A model generated the notes under the pieces. It was not told where the DNA came from. It saw only the letters and a program-made list of their open reading frames with translations, and did not search any database. Positions 34,676 to 50,649 of a stretch of DNA of 64,000 nt are shown piece after piece. Numbering within the stretch: the stretch's first letter is position 1; every line of letters starts with the position of its first letter. A program made the translations under genes and the position numbers. The DNA comes from Clostridia bacterium (GTDB taxonomy: Bacteria; Bacillota; Clostridia; Christensenellales; Aristaeellaceae), in assembly GCA_017431005.1 (NCBI GenBank), contig JAFRLY010000029.1, positions 1 to 64,000 on the forward strand, written 5' to 3'.

Positions 34676-37066
34676 TTATCTTCTTCCGCGTTTTCCCCGG
34701 TATCCCGCTTGCCCGTGATAACAGCTGTCGCACAGCCGGAAGGGCCAGTTCCACGGCAGATTCCTGCCGCAGCTCCGGCAGGTGCGCTGCTGCAGCTTCT
34801 GTGTGGACAGGATATGCACGATTCCCTGGGAGATCAGTTCCTTCCGCCGCTGAATCTCGTCCAGAACCGGATCGGGATTTTCAATGAACAGACGCACATA
34901 ATTATAATACAGGTCGCAGCGGCGGTAATCCGCTTCCAGGGTATCCAGCACCTGGATCGTGCATTCCTCCGGATCCCGGATTTCGGGCATCTCCGCCATG
35001 GCATCAATATGCTCTCCGGCGCTCTCCGCCTGATACAGCAGCTTCCAGCGGTTCAACAGATCGGGCTCCGTCTCGTCGAACGGAATGCACAGAAAGCGAT
35101 ACAGCAGCATCTTGTCCGTATGGCGCGTCTCCATCATGCCTGCCAGAAACGCCATCCTCACCGCCGACGCCTTGCTGAAGTATTCCCGGTCCTTCATGTT
35201 CAGCCATTGGTTGATGATCTGGGTCAGCGGCAGCGGAATGCCCAGCAGGGACTCGGGAAACCGGATGACCGCCTGCGTCAGGGGAAGCAGCGGCCTGGCA
35301 AGCGCCTGACCGACGACGCTCTTGAAGCCGTAGGCATTTACATACCCGATATCATACTGCCCGTAGCGCCCGGCCCTGCCGGCGATCTGCTTGATTTCCG
35401 CGTCCGTCAGCATCCGGGTGATATCCCCGTCGTACTTTTCCGATTCCAGGAACACGATCCGCTCAATCGGCAAGTTCATTCCCATGGCAATGGCGTCTGT
35501 CGATACGACGACCTCCGTTTCGCCCCGGCGAAAACGTTCCGCCTGGTTTCGCCGCACGTCCGGCGGCAGCGCGCCGTAAATCAGGGAAACCCGGTATCCG
35601 CGGCTGCGCAGCTCCGCGGCCACCGCATGCACCCGTGCCTTGGAAAAAACGATCAGCGCGTCCCCGGCCCTGACGCCCGAAGGAAACTGAAAGCCGGATT
35701 TTTCCAGTTCCAGCGGGGTCATCCGCTCATGCCGCGTAATGGAAATCGTATCGCCGCAGTCCAGGATGATCCGTGTCAGGAGACTCTCCGCGTCCGGAGA
35801 CGCGCACAGGTGCATTTCCTCTGCCTGCAGTCCGAGAATCGCCGCTGTCCACGCGCCGCCCCGGTCCCGGTCGCCGATCATCTGGCATTCGTCAATCACG
35901 GCAACGTCATACCGTTTCCCAAGGTCCGCCATTTCCACCGTGGAGGACTGCACCCGGCTGTCCGGCACCCGGATCTGCTCCTCACCCGTCACGAGGCTGC
36001 AGGGAATGTCCGCCATATTCAGCACTTCAAACTGCTCCGCGGCAAGCAGCCGCAGGGGACCCAGATAAATCCCCTGCCGGGCGCCCTTCAGCCGCTCAAC
36101 GCTTTCATGGGTTTTCCCGGAGTTGGTCGGGCCGATATGCAGGATGACCCTGCGCTGCATGGCCCGCGCCAGAGGATACAGATCCCGGAAGTTCCCGGGA
36201 ATTGCGTCCAGCAGGGCGGACCGGATTTTCCGTTCCTTTTCAAAGGCGGCATCCGCCTTCTTCTGTATTTTTTTCAGATGAGGATTTTCAGACAGGAGCG
36301 ACCGGATTCTGTCCTGCGGAAACTGATGCTTCAGTTTCTGGAACAGCACGTCCTTCTCACGGTGCAACTCGTTCCGAAGCAGTTCTCCGATGGTTGTGCC
36401 GTCCGGGTCTGCAATCCGGGCGCAGGCCCCGATATCCGGATACAGCCGGCGGATTTCCTCCCGCAGGTACCCGGTCAGTCCCGCCGGAGCCATCGCGAGA
36501 TTGACAGCGTTCATTGTAAGGCCGCCGGTAAAGACCGTACGCATCATGTGGGGCAGCACCGTCTCAACCCGCTCGTCCGGCCGGTAAAGCCGCGTGATCT
36601 CTCCTTTTGACAGAAATTTCACCACGCGCTTCTCAGCATTCGCCAGGTGCTCCGCCCGTCTTTCCGCCAGCGCCTTCCTCGGCGCGTTGTTTTCAAACAG
36701 TGCCAGTACGCTTTGCGCCTTCTCAAGGGAAACCTTGCTCCGTTCCACCGTCCGCAGGAAGGGCAGGCTGACCGGCCGCCCGGCTGCAAGCTCCTTTTCG
36801 ATCAGCGGCGCCAGCCGGTCAAACTCCGCGGCCTGGGCCGTCTGCACGAGCTCTCCGCGGAGCAGTCCCTGATAGATGCGGTCCCTGCGCTGAATCTGAC
36901 GCAGCACGTTGGCAAACGCTTCGCTGGCCAGATATGCCTTTTTTTCCTCCGGCGTCATACTCCGGATGATCACCCGGGCTTTGTTCAGCGCGTGCTGATA
37001 CAGATACGCCTCCCGGTCCCGGGCCATTTCCGCCGCGTAAACCGCCAGCGCGCGCTGTCCGTCCAT
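34676..37066 (-). CDS. SUV3-like DExH helicase with C-terminal zinc ribbon
   Basis: A 796-residue helicase of the mitochondrial Suv3 group. Residues 1-300 are a helical N-terminal region. The core has motif I GPTNSGKT (312-319), motif II DECQ (392-395) followed by MIGDRDRGGAWTAAILGL, and C-terminal helicase motifs (SLIYGALPPDVRRNQA, TDAIAMGMNLPIERIVFLE, IKQIAGRAGRYG). A Suv3-type C-terminal domain follows. The protein ends in CRSCGRNLPWNWPFRLCDSC, a CxxC-CxxC zinc ribbon not typical of Suv3. The ATG at 37066 was chosen for its GGGAGG site five bases upstream. Suv3 works in RNA degradation; a similar RNA role is inferred here. Confidence 0.9.
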   Translation of the reverse strand: MDGQRALAVYAAEMARDREAYLYQHALNKARVIIRSMTPEEKKAYLASEAFANVLRQIQRRDRIYQGLLRGELVQTAQAAEFDRLAPLIEKELAAGRPVSLPFLRTVERSKVSLEKAQSVLALFENNAPRKALAERRAEHLANAEKRVVKFLSKGEITRLYRPDERVETVLPHMMRTVFTGGLTMNAVNLAMAPAGLTGYLREEIRRLYPDIGACARIADPDGTTIGELLRNELHREKDVLFQKLKHQFPQDRIRSLLSENPHLKKIQKKADAAFEKERKIRSALLDAIPGNFRDLYPLARAMQRRVILHIGPTNSGKTHESVERLKGARQGIYLGPLRLLAAEQFEVLNMADIPCSLVTGEEQIRVPDSRVQSSTVEMADLGKRYDVAVIDECQMIGDRDRGGAWTAAILGLQAEEMHLCASPDAESLLTRIILDCGDTISITRHERMTPLELEKSGFQFPSGVRAGDALIVFSKARVHAVAAELRSRGYRVSLIYGALPPDVRRNQAERFRRGETEVVVSTDAIAMGMNLPIERIVFLESEKYDGDITRMLTDAEIKQIAGRAGRYGQYDIGYVNAYGFKSVVGQALARPLLPLTQAVIRFPESLLGIPLPLTQIINQWLNMKDREYFSKASAVRMAFLAGMMETRHTDKMLLYRFLCIPFDETEPDLLNRWKLLYQAESAGEHIDAMAEMPEIRDPEECTIQVLDTLEADYRRCDLYYNYVRLFIENPDPVLDEIQRRKELISQGIVHILSTQKLQQRTCRSCGRNLPWNWPFRLCDSCYHGQAGYRGKRGRR

Positions 37067-37168
37067 AACTGCCTCCCGTATCATCCGTTTCCACGCTCTG
37101 TATACTACCATAGTTTCCTGTTTTTTTCCACTTTCCCCCGCAGCCCGGAAAAGAAGCGGCAAAAGGCA

Positions 37169-37197
37169 TGGACAGTCCTCCCGGCCTGTGGTATGAT
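37169..37197 (+). promoter_or_regulatory. Promoter of the beta-mannosidase gene
   Basis: TGGACA (37169-37174), 17-base spacer, TATGAT (37192-37197), about 35 bases before the start. Confidence 0.75.
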
Positions 37198-37232
37198 GCA
37201 CGCAAACCGGATACAGTCGGAGGAAAGCGAAT

Positions 37233-39623
37233 ATGATGAAACAAAATCTGGGCGGCTCCTGGATCCTGACAACTGAGGACGGCCGCTCTCTGGACACCCG
37301 TGTGCCCGGCACGCTGCTGCAGACCCTGCTGGAGCACCGGCTGATCCCTGATCCCTTTGACGGCATGAACGAATATGCGGTCTGTGAGCAGACCCGTCAG
37401 ACCTTTTCCATGGAGCGCGCCTTCACCGTTTCGGAGGAGGAGCTGCGCTGCGCCTGCGCGGACCTGGTTTTTGAGGGAGTGGATACGGAAGCCGTCCTCT
37501 TTGTCAACGGTCAGCAGGCAGCCGTCTTCAGCAACATGCACCGGACCTGGCGGATCCCCGTCCGCGGCCTGCTGCATGCCGGGGAAAACAGCCTCCGGGT
37601 CGTTTTCACGTCCGCCCTGGAGGCTGTGGCCCGGGACGCCGCGGAGAACCCGGATATCACCTACGACGGCGGCAGCGAACTGGTCTGGACCGGCGGCATC
37701 CGCAAGGCCCACTATATGTTCGGATGGGACTGGGGTCCCAGGCTGCCCGACGCCGGTCTCTGGCGCCCCGTGTATCTGGAATGCTATGATCTGCGGATTG
37801 AAAACCTCCGGGTGCATCAGGAGCACAGCGGCAGCAGCGTCACGCTGCAGGTCACGGCGGACACCCCGGCGGAACAGCTGCGGATCACGCTGCTGTCTCC
37901 TGAGGGAGACCGCCTGGAGATATGCACCGTCCCGGCAGGAAAGCCTGCCGCCGTCCCGGTGCGCGGGCCGCGGCTCTGGTGGCCCAACGGTCTGGGGGAT
38001 CAGCCCCTGTACACGCTCTGCGTTGAAGCCCTGTCCGGCGGAACCGTTCACGACCGGAAGTCCCTGCGGCTCGGTCTGCGCACGCTGACCGTCTCCACGC
38101 AGCCGGATGCCTGGGGGAAGGAATTCGCCTTCTGCTGCAATGGCGTGAAATTCTTCGCGATGGGCGCGGACTATATTCCGGAGGATAATCTCCTGGCCCG
38201 CTGCAGCCGCGCCAGGACAGACAGGCTGCTGCAGGACTGCAGAGACGCCAACTTCAACTGCGTTCGGGTCTGGGGCGGCGGTGTCTATCCGGACGATGAT
38301 TTCTTTGATCTGTGCGATGAGAAAGGCCTCGTTGTCTGGATGGACCTGATGTTCGCCTGCAATGTTTACCGGCTTACCGGCGCTTTCCGGGACAATATTG
38401 CCCGGGAGGCCCGGGACAATCTGCGCCGGGTGCGTCATCATGCCTCCCTCGGCCTGGTCTGCGGCAACAATGAAATGGAAACCGCCTGGCTCAGCTGGGA
38501 CGGTGTGATGAAGCAGCCGGAATCCCTGAAGCGGGATTATCTGGAGCAGTTTGAAGTGCTGCTGAAGAATATCGCCCATGAGGAAGCGCCGGATACCTTC
38601 TACTGGCCCTCCTCCCCCTCCTCCGGCGGCGGCTTTGACGATCCCAACAGCCTGGACCGCGGCGACGTGCACGACTGGTCGGTCTGGCACGGACGCCGGC
38701 CCTTCTCGGATTTCACGGAGCGTTATCCCCGTTTCTGCTCCGAGTTCGGTTTTGAGTCCTTCCCCGCCATGAAGACGCTACGGTCCTTCATTCATGACGA
38801 GCGGGACATGAATCCCTTTTCCAGGGTCATGGAATCCCATCAGAAGTGTCACAGCGGCAACGCCACCATGCTGCATTACCTGGCTCAGAGTCTTCCCTAT
38901 CCCTATTCCATGGAGCAGCTTGTCCATGCCACGCAATACCTGCAGGCGGAAGCTGTCCGGGCCGGCGTGGAGCACTGGCGGAGGAACCGGGGAAGGTGCA
39001 TGGGTGCTATCTACTGGCAGATCAACGACTGCTGGCCGGTAGCCTCCTGGGCAAGTATCGACAGCTTCGGCCGCTGGAAGGCCCTGCAGTATGAGGCGAA
39101 GCGGTTCTTCGCTCCGCTGCTGGTCAGCCTGAAAAAGGAGACGGACGGTTATTCGGTCTTCGTATCCAATGAGCGCCGGGAAGCCTTCTCCGGTACAGTG
39201 CGGTGCTCCGTGCATGATCCGGAAGGACATATCCTGCGTTCCGAAACCTTCCCGGTTGCCTGCCCCGGGCTGGCCACGGTGTGCGCCGGCCGCATAACTG
39301 CCGCCGCGGGCGAAACCCTGAACCTGGTCCGGTGCGTGCTCCTGGACGCCGAAGGAAACCGTGTCAGCGAGAACGAGGCCTTTGCGGATCCGCCCAAATA
39401 TCTCCGGCTTTCCCGGCCGGTTCTGAAGACTGCCGTCAGCGGAACCCGGGTCTCGCTGACCGCTGATACCCTGTGCCTTGCCGTCGCGCTGGAGGCGGAA
39501 GACGCCCTCTTCTCCGATAACTGGTTCACCCTCTACCCGGGCGAAACCCGGACCGTCACGGCGGACCGGCTGATCCGCCCTGAAAGCCTGCGCGTACGCT
39601 GGCTCTCAGACGGACAGGCATAA
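37233..39623 (+). CDS. Beta-mannosidase (GH2)
   Basis: A 796-residue intracellular GH2 enzyme without a signal peptide, releasing mannose from the non-reducing ends of beta-mannosides. The N-terminal jelly-roll includes VFEGVDTEAVLFVNG and the MFGWDWGPRLPDAGLWRPV signature of beta-mannosidases. The barrel holds acid/base Glu414 (CGNNEME) and nucleophile Glu504 (CSEFGFES). Terminal Ig-like domains follow, ending near residue 796. GGAGG stands before tandem ATGs; either could be used. It is monocistronic with a strong promoter and a hairpin after the stop, and its neighbour is a Gfo/Idh/MocA oxidoreductase on the other strand. Role: breakdown of mannan-derived oligosaccharides. Confidence 0.95.
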   Translation: MMKQNLGGSWILTTEDGRSLDTRVPGTLLQTLLEHRLIPDPFDGMNEYAVCEQTRQTFSMERAFTVSEEELRCACADLVFEGVDTEAVLFVNGQQAAVFSNMHRTWRIPVRGLLHAGENSLRVVFTSALEAVARDAAENPDITYDGGSELVWTGGIRKAHYMFGWDWGPRLPDAGLWRPVYLECYDLRIENLRVHQEHSGSSVTLQVTADTPAEQLRITLLSPEGDRLEICTVPAGKPAAVPVRGPRLWWPNGLGDQPLYTLCVEALSGGTVHDRKSLRLGLRTLTVSTQPDAWGKEFAFCCNGVKFFAMGADYIPEDNLLARCSRARTDRLLQDCRDANFNCVRVWGGGVYPDDDFFDLCDEKGLVVWMDLMFACNVYRLTGAFRDNIAREARDNLRRVRHHASLGLVCGNNEMETAWLSWDGVMKQPESLKRDYLEQFEVLLKNIAHEEAPDTFYWPSSPSSGGGFDDPNSLDRGDVHDWSVWHGRRPFSDFTERYPRFCSEFGFESFPAMKTLRSFIHDERDMNPFSRVMESHQKCHSGNATMLHYLAQSLPYPYSMEQLVHATQYLQAEAVRAGVEHWRRNRGRCMGAIYWQINDCWPVASWASIDSFGRWKALQYEAKRFFAPLLVSLKKETDGYSVFVSNERREAFSGTVRCSVHDPEGHILRSETFPVACPGLATVCAGRITAAAGETLNLVRCVLLDAEGNRVSENEAFADPPKYLRLSRPVLKTAVSGTRVSLTADTLCLAVALEAEDALFSDNWFTLYPGETRTVTADRLIRPESLRVRWLSDGQA

Positions 39624-42414: not shown

Positions 42415-43005
42415 TCATTCTTCCTTCAGCAGATCGGTATACAGTCCCAGCTCCGTCAGTTTCCGCCGGACCTGTTTCAGATCCTCCCAGGCTTCCGATT
42501 TCTTGGCCGGGTCCCGCAGCAGGGCGGAGGGATGGTAGGTCGGCATGATCCATACGCCCTTCCGTTCTGTCCAGATCCCGCGGTCCCGGGTAATCCGGAC
42601 CTGGTCTCCCAGCACGCCCTTCGCGGCGGTCGCCCCCAGCAGCAGAATCACGCGGGGGCGGACCAGGTAGGTTTGCATCCGCAGATGAATTTTGCAGGCC
42701 TCCGCCTCCTCCGGCGTGGGAATGCGGTTATGCGGCGGACGGCACTTCACAATGTTGCAGATATAGACCCGTTCCCGCGGCAGCTGAATCGCCGCCAGCA
42801 TCTTTGTTAGCAGCTGGCCCGCCGGTCCGACAAAGGCGAGCCCCTGCTCATCCTCGACCTGCCCCGGGCCCTCCCCGATCAGCATAAGCGGCGCATTCCT
42901 GTCCCCCTGTCCGGGAACCTTGTGCAGGATATGCTGACACAGCGGGCACAGATTGCAGGCCGCCACCTGCCGTTCAAAAAGCTCCCATGTGATCTGATCG
43001 TTCAT
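42415..43005 (-). CDS. Family 4/5 uracil-DNA glycosylase
   Basis: A 196-residue Fe-S cluster UDG that removes uracil from DNA. Four cysteines are visible: CNLC near the N-terminus, then Cys of VKCRPPHNR and, 16 residues later, Cys of EAEAC, fitting the C-x2-C-xn-C-x16-C pattern of thermophile-type UDGs. GEGPGQVEDEQG is the water-activating motif A, and MPTYHPSALLRDP is motif B. Base-excision repair follows. It is unusual next to nucleotide-related genes, 69 bases after the ADA-like gene. The start has a weak ribosome-binding site. Confidence 0.93.
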   Translation of the reverse strand: MNDQITWELFERQVAACNLCPLCQHILHKVPGQGDRNAPLMLIGEGPGQVEDEQGLAFVGPAGQLLTKMLAAIQLPRERVYICNIVKCRPPHNRIPTPEEAEACKIHLRMQTYLVRPRVILLLGATAAKGVLGDQVRITRDRGIWTERKGVWIMPTYHPSALLRDPAKKSEAWEDLKQVRRKLTELGLYTDLLKEE

Positions 43006-43074: not shown

Positions 43075-45525
43075 TTATTCCTCTGCTTCCTGAAACGCAA
43101 TTGCCTCCAGCACGGAGGATACGTCCCGCAGCGGCTGCACATAGCCCTCCAGCAGCTTGGCCTTGGCCTTCAGCCCGGCGGATCTCGGATTGATCAGAAT
43201 CCGGCTTTTCTCCCGGCCGTTCCTGGCCTCCTGAATCAGGTTCAGCGCGGCGGAATTGCCGTCGAAAGCCAGCACTACGGAAGGCATGCGCCTGAAAATC
43301 TCATAGGCAAAGCTCTTGTACAGTCCCATTCCGGAGCTCTCGATGGAGATCAGAATGCCGGTTCCCGCCTCCAGCAGCCGGTTCAGCTCGGCGCGGCTCA
43401 GCCGGTTGGGAACGATTGAGAAAACCCGGAACCGCCCCGCAGCGCGGCTGACCAGATATCCCTCCTGTCCGGAAAGCGTATGTCCGGTTACAAAGAAGAT
43501 CCTGTCCGGATCCGCTGCTGCCAGCAGCCGGTCGATCAGCTCCCGGTCCTCCTTCCGCACCGCCGTGCGCCGCCGGTCACTGTTGAAGCTGCCGCCGCAG
43601 ACCACAACCGGCAGCATATTCTCCGGCAGCTCCTGCATCCGGTCCTTCAGATATTCCTCCGCGCTGAGGCGGCTGCTGTCCCGCCACAGGTCCAGGCTGA
43701 CGTGTTCCGTGGCTTCCAGCCTGCGGTTATAGAAAATCTCCGCGTCGCCCCCCGCGCAGTCCTTCAGGAACTGTTCCCGACGCTGTTCGAAGGTTTTCAG
43801 GCTTTCCGAGAGGATGGCGTCCTCCGCCCGCCGCATTTCCCGCAGCTCCTCCAGCGACAGGCCCAGCAGCTTTTCCAGGCTCAGCTCCTCGTCAATGGAA
43901 TTCGTCCCGTACAGCGCGCCGCCGTCCGTTCCCTGCACACAGCGGATGCCGGAGCGCAGGTACTGCCGCAGCGGATGCCGGTTCAGACGGCTCAGGTTGT
44001 TCAGCCTGACGTTGGAGGTGATCTGGAATTCCAGCGTGACCCCGTATTTCCGCATATCCTCCAGCAGCGTTTCCCCTTTTGCGCTGCGCAGATCGCAGGT
44101 GTAAAGGCCGTGCCCGATCCGCAGCGGCGGTACCGGCAGCCCGGGATCCAGCGCCTCGGCGACGCAGCGGATGCTGTTGGCCACATTATCCCGCAGACTG
44201 TCGTTTTCACCGGCGTGAATCCGGATGACGAATCCGGGATGCGCCTGGGCGATCTGCGTCAGCTCCCGGATGACGCCCCGCAGTTCCAGAATGTCGTTGA
44301 TTTCCTCTCCGATGATATCGCTGCCGGCTACATAGGGATCGTCCGCGATCGCACGCAGGCATCTCAGGTTTTCCGCCAGATAGTCGTTCGGGGTCACCTG
44401 ATCCCGGATGATCGTCAGCGGGATCCGGCGGATTCCGGCCAGGAAGCGCAGCAGCACGCCGGTTTCCCGCTGCACGGAAGGCAGAATCTCATGAATCTGC
44501 CGCAGCTTGGCGGGAAACTCCGCCCGGTTCAGCAGGCCGGTATCGGATATCTCCGCGTAAACGATGCCCCGGTTCCGGTATTCCCGGGCAATCCACAGCA
44601 GCAGATCCTGGTACAGCGTGTTGGCGCGGTACCTGTCCTCATGGTCCTGCTGGATGCGCACGGCGTAGGCATGGACCTCTCGGTCCGGGATGCCGGCCAG
44701 GTTCAGGCCGGCAAACGCGTCATCGGATGGAACGCCCTTCGTAAACACGTACCGGTACAGGTAAACCTTCTCCAGATCCGCGAACACCGCCTGACCGTCC
44801 TTGGGAATCGTCAGGCTGTTCCGGATTTTCTCGATGTTGGCGGCCGCGGCCTTCGGGTTTCCGAGAATCAGGTCGGCAAAATTGATGAAGGTCAGGTCGT
44901 CAATCCGCCGCTCCCGGTAGCGGCCCGACAGGGCGCTGTCCTCCAGCTGCTTTTCTGTTTCCGCCCGCGCCTGCTTCAGGCAGGCTTCCTGCTCCGGTGT
45001 GCAGGCCAGCTTCAGCTTTCTGATATAGTACAGGGGATACCTGATCTGATGAACGATGCCCAGCGCGATCAGGATGTCCGGCGCCAGGTTGCCGTTCATA
45101 TGGGTATGCAGATCCGTCCGGAATTTGCACTCGCTTCGGATATAGGTCTTGACGATGGTCTTCTCAATTCCCAGCCGGTAATCCTTTGTCTGGCTCATCA
45201 GGGTTTTGGAGATCGCGGGGATGGATGCTTTCAGCTCCACCTGCCCGTCCGGGAAAATGTTGGCGATCTTCGTGTTGCCCAGGCGCAGAATGTACATCCG
45301 GCGGTTATCACCGTCATAATAGCAGGGAACCTCGCCGCGGATCACCTTGAGCCCCGTTTCGTCGAATGTGGTTTCCAGACCGCAGAGGCGGGCCAGATTT
45401 GTAATCAGGTTGCCCGTATGATGGTTCGGCGTCCGGATCACATGAAGCATCCGTTCCCCGTCCATATACAGGTCCACAGCAATATCCTTTTCCCTGTCCA
45501 GATAAAAGCGCTGGAAGAAAACCAT
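43075..45525 (-). CDS. Adenosine-deaminase-like/SLOG-like fusion protein
   Basis: An 816-residue protein of three parts. Residues 1-130 are an unassigned beta-rich N-terminus. Residues 135-585 are an adenosine/AMP deaminase-like metal hydrolase with HTH (His140, His142), HAGE (His437-Glu440), GHG (His472) and TDG (Asp534). In ADA the last motif is TDD; here the second Asp is Gly, which may change base recognition. Residues 636-800 form a Rossmann-like domain (VVVCGGSF, GTGILISIESSGM) with the look of SLOG/LOG/DprA nucleotide-binding folds. The fusion suggests a nucleotide-processing sensor. The gene follows an LSm-like/GNAT gene by 36 bases. It is not the RADAR RdrB, because no RdrA ATPase is near. 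GGGAGGT precedes the ATG. Confidence 0.8.
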   Translation of the reverse strand: MVFFQRFYLDREKDIAVDLYMDGERMLHVIRTPNHHTGNLITNLARLCGLETTFDETGLKVIRGEVPCYYDGDNRRMYILRLGNTKIANIFPDGQVELKASIPAISKTLMSQTKDYRLGIEKTIVKTYIRSECKFRTDLHTHMNGNLAPDILIALGIVHQIRYPLYYIRKLKLACTPEQEACLKQARAETEKQLEDSALSGRYRERRIDDLTFINFADLILGNPKAAAANIEKIRNSLTIPKDGQAVFADLEKVYLYRYVFTKGVPSDDAFAGLNLAGIPDREVHAYAVRIQQDHEDRYRANTLYQDLLLWIAREYRNRGIVYAEISDTGLLNRAEFPAKLRQIHEILPSVQRETGVLLRFLAGIRRIPLTIIRDQVTPNDYLAENLRCLRAIADDPYVAGSDIIGEEINDILELRGVIRELTQIAQAHPGFVIRIHAGENDSLRDNVANSIRCVAEALDPGLPVPPLRIGHGLYTCDLRSAKGETLLEDMRKYGVTLEFQITSNVRLNNLSRLNRHPLRQYLRSGIRCVQGTDGGALYGTNSIDEELSLEKLLGLSLEELREMRRAEDAILSESLKTFEQRREQFLKDCAGGDAEIFYNRRLEATEHVSLDLWRDSSRLSAEEYLKDRMQELPENMLPVVVCGGSFNSDRRRTAVRKEDRELIDRLLAAADPDRIFFVTGHTLSGQEGYLVSRAAGRFRVFSIVPNRLSRAELNRLLEAGTGILISIESSGMGLYKSFAYEIFRRMPSVVLAFDGNSAALNLIQEARNGREKSRILINPRSAGLKAKAKLLEGYVQPLRDVSSVLEAIAFQEAEE

Positions 45526-45561
45526 TTCCCGTACCTCCCGCGTTTTTCGTCCTGTTTCCGT

Positions 45562-46185
45562 TCAGCCGATATCCTTTTCCATCCTGATGCAGCGGAATGT
45601 ATCCCCCTGTACCGGTTCGCCGCTGATCTCATATCCGAGCTGTTCGTAAAAGGCGGTTTTATTGTCCCTGCTCTCCAGCACTGCCCGGGTAAAACCCAGC
45701 TCAGCCGCCCACTGCTCACATTCCAGCACGGTCATACTCCCGATGCCCTGCCGGCGGTATTCCGGCAGCACGACCACTCTGCCGATCATCACGCTGCTGC
45801 CGTCCAGCGGATACATCCTTGCCGTGCTGACCGGAAAATCCCTGTCCGTCACAACAATGTACCTTGTATCAGGCCGGTCATGCTCGTCGAACTCCTGCCG
45901 CAGGGAAATATGATGCTTCCTTGCCATCGCCTGAATGCGGACATAGTAGGCGCCTGCCTGCTGCCAGGTTTCCGCCGCCCGGAGGACGCGCAGATCCGGC
46001 AGTGTTTCAATCCGGGCCGCGTCGCTCTCAAAGATCTGATACACACCGATCCTGATGCTTTCCTCCTCCCGGCCGAACTCGTGCAGGCCGAAGCCGGAAG
46101 GATAAACATCCGCCCTGCCGGTAAACATCCGGCCCTGCCGGTCGGTAATCCGGACCATCTGCCGGTCATATACAGAAAGCTCCAT
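45562..46185 (-). CDS. LSm-like/GNAT acetyltransferase
   Basis: A 207-residue protein. Residues 1-55 look like a short LSm/Sm-type beta barrel (MVRITDRQGRMFTGRADVYP). Residues 75-205 are a GNAT acetyltransferase with the CoA-binding motif RVVVLPEYRRQGIGSMTV and a C-terminal ESRDNKTAFYEQLGYE. It starts the operon with the ADA-like/SLOG-like gene, 36 bases upstream. The Sm-like barrel could guide it to RNA or to a nucleotide, but this is speculative. A GGGAG lies about ten bases before the ATG, and an extended -10 (TGCTATACT) is upstream. Confidence 0.78.
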   Translation of the reverse strand: MELSVYDRQMVRITDRQGRMFTGRADVYPSGFGLHEFGREEESIRIGVYQIFESDAARIETLPDLRVLRAAETWQQAGAYYVRIQAMARKHHISLRQEFDEHDRPDTRYIVVTDRDFPVSTARMYPLDGSSVMIGRVVVLPEYRRQGIGSMTVLECEQWAAELGFTRAVLESRDNKTAFYEQLGYEISGEPVQGDTFRCIRMEKDIG

Positions 46186-48959: not shown

Positions 48960-50504
48960 TCAGAATGTCTGAGACCGGTCGGGAATGAGACCGCCTGCGG
49001 TCAGCTCAAGCACTCTTCCCGGCCACCTGTCGATCAGCAGCCGGTCATGCGTCACGCAGATCACCGCGCCCGGAAAACCGCGGATCATGTCGCGCATGAC
49101 CGGCGCCGAAAGCGGGGAAAGATTCCGGGTCGGTTCATCCATCAGCAGTACGTCGGGATGCCGCAGCATCATTCCCAGCAGAAGGACCTTTGCCTTCTGC
49201 CCGCCCGACAGCGCCGCGATTGGATGCTCCAGCTCATCCCGTGAAAACTTCATCGCGATCAGGGCGGCGCGGATCTGCGTCGCCTGTTCCTTTGTCCCGT
49301 CTGTGTTTAAAAAATCCACAGGGGTTTTCGCCCTGTCCAGCCCCTCGTCATAGTGCTGGGGCATCATGGCCGTACGCAGGCTTGTATCTTCCTCCAGCAT
49401 GCCGGCGATGAGCTTCAGGAGCGTCGTTTTTCCGCAGCCGTTCTTCCCGATGATCAGGATCTTCTCCGAGCCGCGGATCTGCAGGCGGACGGGAGCGGCC
49501 AGCACCTTTCCTTCCGCCGTCAGCCGGTCCAGCTGCAGATTCAGCACACCTTTCCCCGAGGGAACCGGGGTCACGTTCTGAAACATGGCATACATGGACA
49601 GCTCCTCCGCCGGACGCTCAACAGCATTCTCCTGTTCCCTTTCGAACCGGTGCTCCAGGCTTTTCACTGCCTTCATCTTCTTTTTCAGCAGGCGGCCCCC
49701 GTGCGGATCCCGCCTGGAAATATTCGCCTGCGCATGCTCCACGGCATTTTCAATCCGCTGCAGCTTTTCATCCTGGATCCGTCTTTCCCGCTGATCCGCC
49801 TTCCAGAGCGATTCCTGACGGTCCAGCTGCCTGCGCCGGTTGTCCACGTACATGGCGTACGGCTCCCTGGCCCATGTCCACCGGGGCTCCGCCCTTCCAT
49901 GCAGGGATTCCAGGTGCAGCACCTGCGTTGCCGTCGCCCGCAGCAGCTTCTCGTCATGGCTCACGTACAGCACCGGCAGCCGGCATTCCAGCAGATATTT
50001 TTCCAGTGAAAGAATCGCGTCAATGTCCAGATCGTTGCCCGGTTCATCCAGCAGCAGCAGTGTCGGCTTCCCGCACAGCATCAGCAGCATCCGCAGCCGG
50101 ACCTTCTCCCCGCCGGACAGGGAACCGAACGGCGTTTCCGCCCAGCACAGCTCCGGATCCATGGACAGGCTCCTGCAGAGGGCAGCCAGCTCGCCGGTGT
50201 CGGTATCCTGAAAATCCGGGTTTGCCAGGCAGACCGCGTAGGCCGGCATCTCATTCCAGGCCTGCGGCGATTCCTGCGCCAGATAGCCGATACGCTCTCC
50301 GGGACAGGCGATCCGACCCGTCACATCCGCCCAGGTCTGCAGCAGTTCCGGATGAACGACGGCCTTCAGCAGCGCTGACTTGCCGTTCCCCTCCTCGCCG
50401 ATCACCGCCAGGCGTTCCGTTCCCGCCAGCGTAAAGGACAGGTCATTGATCAGCGGACGTAAATCCTTGTTGTTCAGAATGGATAAATGCTGAACTGTCA
50501 GCAT
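48960..50504 (-). CDS. ABC-F family ATPase (putative ribosome-protection type)
   Basis: A 514-residue protein with two ABC domains and no membrane part, an ABC-F protein that works on the ribosome. The first Walker A is GEEGNGKSA, its signature LSGGEKVR and Walker B LLLLDEPGNDLDI. The second has GKNGCGKTT, LSGGQKAK and LLMDEPTRNLSPL. A charged linker (about 215-310, with RDPHGGRLLKKKMKAVK) corresponds to the P-site tRNA-interaction motif. GGGAGG lies before the ATG at 50504. A strong promoter and terminator-like leader lie upstream, as in antibiotic-resistance ABC-F genes. Resistance is therefore possible but unproven. Confidence 0.88.
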   Translation of the reverse strand: MLTVQHLSILNNKDLRPLINDLSFTLAGTERLAVIGEEGNGKSALLKAVVHPELLQTWADVTGRIACPGERIGYLAQESPQAWNEMPAYAVCLANPDFQDTDTGELAALCRSLSMDPELCWAETPFGSLSGGEKVRLRMLLMLCGKPTLLLLDEPGNDLDIDAILSLEKYLLECRLPVLYVSHDEKLLRATATQVLHLESLHGRAEPRWTWAREPYAMYVDNRRRQLDRQESLWKADQRERRIQDEKLQRIENAVEHAQANISRRDPHGGRLLKKKMKAVKSLEHRFEREQENAVERPAEELSMYAMFQNVTPVPSGKGVLNLQLDRLTAEGKVLAAPVRLQIRGSEKILIIGKNGCGKTTLLKLIAGMLEEDTSLRTAMMPQHYDEGLDRAKTPVDFLNTDGTKEQATQIRAALIAMKFSRDELEHPIAALSGGQKAKVLLLGMMLRHPDVLLMDEPTRNLSPLSAPVMRDMIRGFPGAVICVTHDRLLIDRWPGRVLELTAGGLIPDRSQTF

Positions 50505-50523
50505 AAACACACCTCCCGTCTGA

Positions 50524-50649
50524 GGCGTCAGTCCCGGAGGCAAAGATGGCGCAAAAAAAGAGCCGGAAACTGCGCTCCGGAATTTTGACGCCAGAAAACA
50601 GCCGCCCTTCCGCGGCTCATTCCAACATCAAAATCCGTTATTTGCGCAT
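50524..50649 (-). promoter_or_regulatory. Attenuator-like leader of the ABC-F gene
   Basis: Downstream of a strong promoter, the minus-strand leader has two mini-ORFs: ATG-CGC-AAA-TAA (50638-50649, after a GGGAAG) and ATG-TTG-GAA-TGA (50617-50628). Then a stem GCCGC/GCGGC, and a short terminator hairpin (CCGGA/TCCGG) with seven T (50553-50580). Outer arms GGCGTCA/TGACGCC (50524-50530, 50586-50592) could form a competing structure. This is the layout expected for ribosome-mediated attenuation. Confidence 0.55.

Follow-up and report, generated by a model that had tools for sequence, protein, structure and literature searches.

An adenosine-deaminase-like protein with a probable SLOG-like C-terminal domain, near-core in two genera of Clostridia

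The window analysed here, a 64,000-nucleotide stretch of a Clostridia contig, encodes a large adenosine deaminase (ADA)-like protein, and the question raised by this locus is whether the protein belongs to a nucleotide-based conflict system or to the ordinary physiology of its carriers. The original prediction described a fusion of an ADA-like domain with a C-terminal SLOG-like domain, flanked by a gene for an LSm-like/GNAT protein and by a uracil-DNA glycosylase (UDG) gene. The predicted 816-residue reading frame is present and intact, and both neighboring genes lie where they had been placed (Table 1).

Table 1. Features of the ADA-SLOG locus, with positions numbered along the window
Feature	Coordinates	Strand	Remarks
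ADA-SLOG protein, whole gene	43075..45525	-	Intact open reading frame, 816 aa
N-terminal domain, residues 1-136	45118..45525	-	Best conserved part
ADA-like deaminase core, residues 137-580	43786..45117	-	HTH 140-142, HAGE 437-440, GHG 471-473, TDG 533-535
Linker, residues 581-635	43621..43785	-	Weak conservation, 43%
Probable C-terminal SLOG/LSDAT-like domain, residues 636-816	43078..43620	-	Family HMM to L117; L117 to LSDAT; alignment
GNAT acetyltransferase gene	45562..46185	-	36 bases upstream of ADA-SLOG gene; neighbor without conserved association
Family-4 UDG gene	42415..43005	-	69 bases downstream of ADA-SLOG gene; neighbor without conserved association

The Pfam A_deaminase profile matches residues 317-566 of the protein well above its curated cut-off (E = 2.2e-14; 53.7 bits against 27), and all 50 of the family's proteins that were scanned also match it (E up to 5). 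This match and the full HxH, HAGE, GHG and Asp set place the protein in the ADA superfamily. The HTH, HAGE, GHG and TDG motifs reported by the original prediction were confirmed at motif residues 140, 437, 472 and 534, and in a family alignment whose 128 rows represent 125 distinct proteins, with four rows from one locus, D138, H140, H142, H437, E440, H472, D534 and G535 are invariant. The predicted Gly in place of the second TDD Asp is fixed in the aligned family (G535 in 128 of 128 rows); the matching residue is D or N, never G, in all 60 non-family ADA-like rows from fetched loci (53 rows and seven later additions, with 15 further fetched loci outside the count). The family thus carries TDG throughout, in place of the TDD/TDN motif of adenosine deaminase proper, and the protein falls far short of every NCBIfam adenosine-deaminase equivalog cut-off listed (best 45 bits against 216.55, for TIGR01430). 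The second Asp of TDD contacts the purine in mouse ADA, and its loss suggests that the purine pocket is changed, so that the altered substrate pocket read from this substitution holds as a reading of the sequence; Gly at this position might instead point to a function that is not deamination. HxH and HAGE are spaced 297 residues apart in this protein; the spacing is 181-185 residues in the four ordinary ADAs compared and 216 in L117, a divergent relative, so that the extra segment inside the barrel is probably an insertion. When compared with adenosine deaminase (A_deaminase, TIGR01430), the protein thus shares HxH, HAGE, GHG and the metal Asp, but differs in its added N- and C-terminal domains, its 112-116 extra barrel residues and its TDG motif.

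Conservation extends beyond the deaminase core. Mean majority-residue conservation is 76% over the N-terminal 135 residues, 72-74% in the ADA parts, 43% in the linker and 65% over residues 636-800. Neither Pfam, without any match, nor the PDB, without a convincing one, yielded a known family for the N-terminal domain; a family HMM of this domain misses L117, yet the aligned starts of the family and L117 look alike. A weak Radical_SAM match of the 816-aa protein in Pfam (E = 0.0093) was absent from the other 49 members scanned and was discarded.

The identity of the C-terminal domain was approached through L117 (also L186; genome G344), a 783-aa relative at 24% identity with a clearer SLOG/LSDAT tail. 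The C-terminus of the 816-aa protein itself matched nothing in Pfam, and the corresponding family profile gave nothing convincing against the PDB, where the top match, at E = 0.18, was an unrelated chain. A C-terminal HMM built from 124 family proteins, with L117 left out, nevertheless found L117 at E = 1e-7 among 1,830 targets (best stretch i-E 1.1e-5), and none of 200 shuffled copies matched in the control. Searched alone against Pfam, the L117 C-terminus matched LSDAT_prok (E = 7.7e-4; 19.2 bits against a cut-off of 25.4), COG2_C (E = 0.049) and LSDAT_euk (E = 0.12, likewise below its Pfam cut-off), with COG2_C ranking between the two SLOG/LSDAT matches. A curated SLOG/LSDAT cut-off was therefore reached neither by the 816-aa protein, which had no match, nor by L117, the only one of 50 members scanned with a SLOG match of any kind. 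In the alignment, the family stretches GGS, VxGHxxxG and DGNSAAxN fall on GSS, VTGGTxxG and GGGPIVSD of L117. Based on this two-step link, from the family HMM to L117 and from L117 to LSDAT through one divergent protein, residues 636-816 are probably SLOG/LSDAT-like. The ADA half of the predicted fusion thus stands on direct profile and motif evidence, and the SLOG half on the two-step link. LSDAT comprises the SLOG domain of TRPM channels and its prokaryotic relatives; the resemblance lies in the L117 matches to LSDAT_prok and LSDAT_euk and in the aligned glycine motifs, whereas the sub-threshold match and the fusion to a deaminase set the family apart. In zebrafish TRPM2, ADP-ribose binding is reported for the LSDAT region (PMC13143021).

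Outside the family, the C-terminal profile gave four weak matches (E of 0.004 or more) in 184 genomes, and the two examined were judged to be chance matches. L263, L281 and L282, candidate SLOG relatives, were likewise dismissed as chance matches, being by eye an aminotransferase, a prephenate dehydrogenase and MurF. L117 was also seen to lack most of the barrel insertion and any obvious partner gene. Its form is possibly nearer to the ancestral state.

Ordinary ADAs, defined as proteins with an A_deaminase match over 200 bits, are scarce in the genera carrying the gene, with three of 41 genomes in the set for the window's genus and seven of 61 in the presumed Butyrivibrio genus. The ADA-SLOG gene is the sole A_deaminase match (E up to 0.001) in genomes G022 and G035, and in G933 and G951; the window's own genome, G002 and others encode an additional, smaller ADA-like protein. 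Replacement of a housekeeping ADA by ADA-SLOG was considered and not adopted; the gene is absent from five of the 10 genomes with an ordinary ADA and from 21 of the 92 without one, a comparison across incomplete genomes that is at most suggestive. Two further groups of ADA-like proteins were observed in these genomes. One is a small family of about 320 aa, with HVGE for HAGE and an SDD motif, that occurs in both genera (L243, on contig C46 of the window's genome, and L258-L262). The other, in the window's genus, consists of open reading frames of 488 aa (L245) and 463 aa (L246) in which, by eye, a GNAT-like start is in frame with a different small ADA-like protein of the TINTDD type; relatives of these proteins in L242 and L244 have shorter frames.

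Enzymes of consecutive steps are often fused, and a two-step salvage route, unlikely in our estimate, is the alternative that survives best. The ADA half would here deaminate an adenine nucleotide, possibly N6-modified, and a LOG-like SLOG half would split the base from the ribose phosphate. The four genomes in which ADA-SLOG is the only A_deaminase match fit this proposal, as does the cleavage of AMP-type N-glycosidic bonds described for LOG-like SLOG domains (PMC9503650), but the tail resembles LSDAT, the TRPM-type clade, rather than LOG. The second glycine motif, DGNSAAxN, is also unlike the LOG catalytic motif.

The second alternative, which we consider doubtful, is that the tail is some other Rossmann-like or scaffold domain, and the protein a housekeeping purine deaminase that forms oligomers and lacks ligand control. 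It would account for the lack of a direct Pfam match or a convincing PDB match for the C-terminus and for the restriction of SLOG matches to L117, but the link through L117 holds at both steps, with the same glycine motifs aligned, and scores so far under the adenosine-deaminase cut-offs do not fit a housekeeping enzyme.

The GNAT gene, proposed as a partner, is not supported as a conserved one: in a tblastn search of 120 other loci, independent of gene calling, the GNAT protein had one weak match (in L086, at 25% identity and a distance of about 5 kb from the ADA-SLOG gene) and the UDG none. Unrelated GNATs escape this query, and because some loci lie on short contigs with little flank, absence is weaker evidence there. 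On this lack of recurrence GNAT and UDG were rejected as conserved partners. The LSm-like label given to the start of the GNAT protein is also unsupported, as residues 1-86 have no Pfam match (E up to 1) and a sole PHROG match, of unknown function, at E = 0.1. Among 86 loci having both neighbors, the commonest neighbor cluster is present in eight, mostly from one tree clade, and at 31 loci, largely from other lineages, the neighbors vary, with small clusters common to a few loci. The other neighbors in the window are sugar and signaling genes, Rfam identified only a tRNA in the window, and a gene for a Suv3-like helicase (34676-37366, minus strand; Pfam DEXQc_Suv3, 1.5e-60) was observed near the ADA-SLOG gene in this bacterium.

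No specific defense gene was recognized among the ten window genes scanned with PADLOC, where helicase, ATPase, glycosidase and amylase matches were taken as superfamily matches. The same reading was given to mad3 (123.7 bits, E = 3.1e-36) on an ABC-F-like protein (48960-50543), on which plain ABC_tran gives 122.6 bits, and to a CARF/beta-galactosidase match (1.9e-19) on a GH2 enzyme. The statement that RdrA and Thoeris partners are missing holds among these ten genes, and for the relatives it is matched by neighbors that show no wide recurrence. The absence of conserved context weakens the conflict-system idea, and an undescribed nucleotide-based multi-gene system, as originally proposed, is not upheld, since no neighbor recurs widely and the gene has a near-core distribution in two genera, if a patchy one in a third family. 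The original prediction had named plain housekeeping homologs lacking conserved context as the outcome that would count against it; the context is indeed lacking, but the homologs are not plain housekeeping ADAs.

To establish the distribution of the gene, a genome collection holding one genome per species (84,980 species) was scanned, revealing 416 stretches that encode relatives at E up to 1e-3. The best 80 of these 416 are all labeled as Clostridia or subgroups thereof, many of them from ruminants. In the window's genus the gene is at or near full length in 27 of 37 genomes (26 whole and one across two contigs) and in nine of the 10 genomes at least 90% complete, G011 being without it; the same draw included 24 genomes belonging to the order's other families, none of which carries the gene. 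The presumed Butyrivibrio genus has the gene in 45 of 61 genomes, some in pieces, and in 31 of 35 high-quality genomes (absent from G929, G934, G943 and G944). It is patchy in a third family (eight of 59 genomes), appears at full length in 11 of 391 genomes of a class-wide sample, which also includes the divergent form L117, and is present in two of 299 genomes of a phylum-wide sample; one further member was found in G835. The gene is thus near-core in two Clostridia genera, and it is not essential, because good genomes such as G011 and the four above lack it. In the plasmid, phage and viral-contig collections no copy of the ADA-SLOG gene was found; a Novosphingobium plasmid match proved to be an ADA-like protein of 400 aa that has no SLOG-sized tail. 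Genome G004, from the window's genus, contains a 64-aa stretch of the gene (L028; 86% identity) that includes a stop and may reflect either decay of the copy or an error in assembly.

The ADA-SLOG gene is under purifying selection, with dN/dS of 0.03-0.20 in 11 of 12 selected pairs (three of them with dS over 1) and saturation in the remaining pair. A quick gene tree places all 22 rows from the presumed Butyrivibrio family in a single clade with support 100, which, from the gene tree alone, indicates vertical descent for these rows only. The third family's 10 rows group together with a low support value of 39. For the window's genus, the 15 rows are split, requiring six changes, and are intermixed with collection rows of loose taxonomy, some labeled Lachnospiraceae; as these 15 rows do not group together, gene transfer may have occurred among them.

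Among known systems, RdrB of RADAR is comparable as a large ADA-superfamily protein with insertions, but neither the 816-aa protein nor L117 matches the RdrB models (E up to 10), and RdrA is lacking among the ten window genes. A closer parallel in design is Cad1, the CARF-ADA effector of type III CRISPR, for which conversion of ATP to ITP and a CARF nucleotide-gated switch have been described (PMC11645235). Both proteins fuse an ADA effector to a probable Rossmann-type nucleotide-binding domain; ADA-SLOG differs in lacking a CARF match and in its reverse domain order, and no Cas gene was recognized among the ten window genes scanned. The PADLOC CARF_ADA model gave 20.7 bits on the 816-aa protein, over model positions 339-561 only, and 59.8 bits on L117, but this cannot be taken as CRISPR kinship, since scores of 59.7-198.7 bits are reached by eight other members of the ADA superfamily. 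ThsA of type I Thoeris, in which SLOG fused to an NADase acts as a nucleotide-gated switch (PMC11204291), likewise places an enzyme domain before a SLOG-like domain; in ADA-SLOG the effector is ADA-like with no SIR2 match, the ten window genes include no Thoeris match, and the gene is near-core in two genera. No description of the ADA-SLOG architecture was found in the literature searched, with an earlier mention possible in the SLOG survey that Burroughs et al. published in 2015, and two conflict-system papers cover SLOG without the term 'adenosine deaminase' (PMC7159879, PMC9503650).

Single-gene abortive infection, with the SLOG-like domain sensing an infection nucleotide (e.g. a derivative of ADP-ribose) and the ADA half spoiling the ATP/dATP pool as in RADAR and Cad1, is the least probable reading: it would bring together, in one architecture, a sensor like that of ThsA and an effector like that of Cad1, it has precedent in RdrB and Cad1, ADA-superfamily proteins described as defense effectors (PMC12948488, PMC11645235), and it suits the patchiness in the third family and the absence from most of the class sample, but it is opposed by near-core occurrence in two genera, a top immediate-neighbor cluster of just 8/86 loci, the lack of specific defense genes among those scanned and of copies in the mobile-element collections, and the non-specific CARF-ADA match.

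We tentatively favor, as plausible though short of probable, a stand-alone, SLOG-controlled purine nucleotide deaminase that serves normal physiology in rumen and gut Clostridia, in homeostasis or a stress response, and rank it over salvage, the unregulated deaminase with a non-SLOG tail and the immune effector, in that order. Ordinary physiology is favored because the occurrence of the gene is near-core, partnerless and chromosomal. The ADA-like barrel, with its metal and catalytic set complete and its pocket altered by the Asp to Gly change, would deaminate not plain adenosine but an adenine nucleotide or a modified adenine compound, and the C-terminal SLOG-like domain would bind a nucleotide and tune this activity, a form of ligand control modeled on SLOG and SIR2 in ThsA and on CARF and ADA in Cad1. 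We infer on these grounds deamination, a nucleotide-level substrate, ligand control and a physiological role: the enzyme would act in nucleotide homeostasis or stress signaling without need of a linked partner gene, and would resemble ThsA and Cad1 in working mode while being a member of neither. In a bolder and rather improbable version, the TRPM-type SLOG would read an ADP-ribose-like or adenine-dinucleotide signal and switch an ADA barrel remodeled for bulky ATP/dATP, NAD or ADP-ribose, making the protein a one-gene hybrid of ThsA and Cad1 fixed in rumen Clostridia for stress control or innate immunity.

If the favored reading is true, deaminases under Rossmann-type nucleotide sensors would extend beyond CRISPR defense to stand-alone, near-core enzymes of the rumen, whose carriers apparently include Butyrivibrio proteoclasticus B316, and the family would offer a possible cousin of defense effectors in a protein amenable to test.
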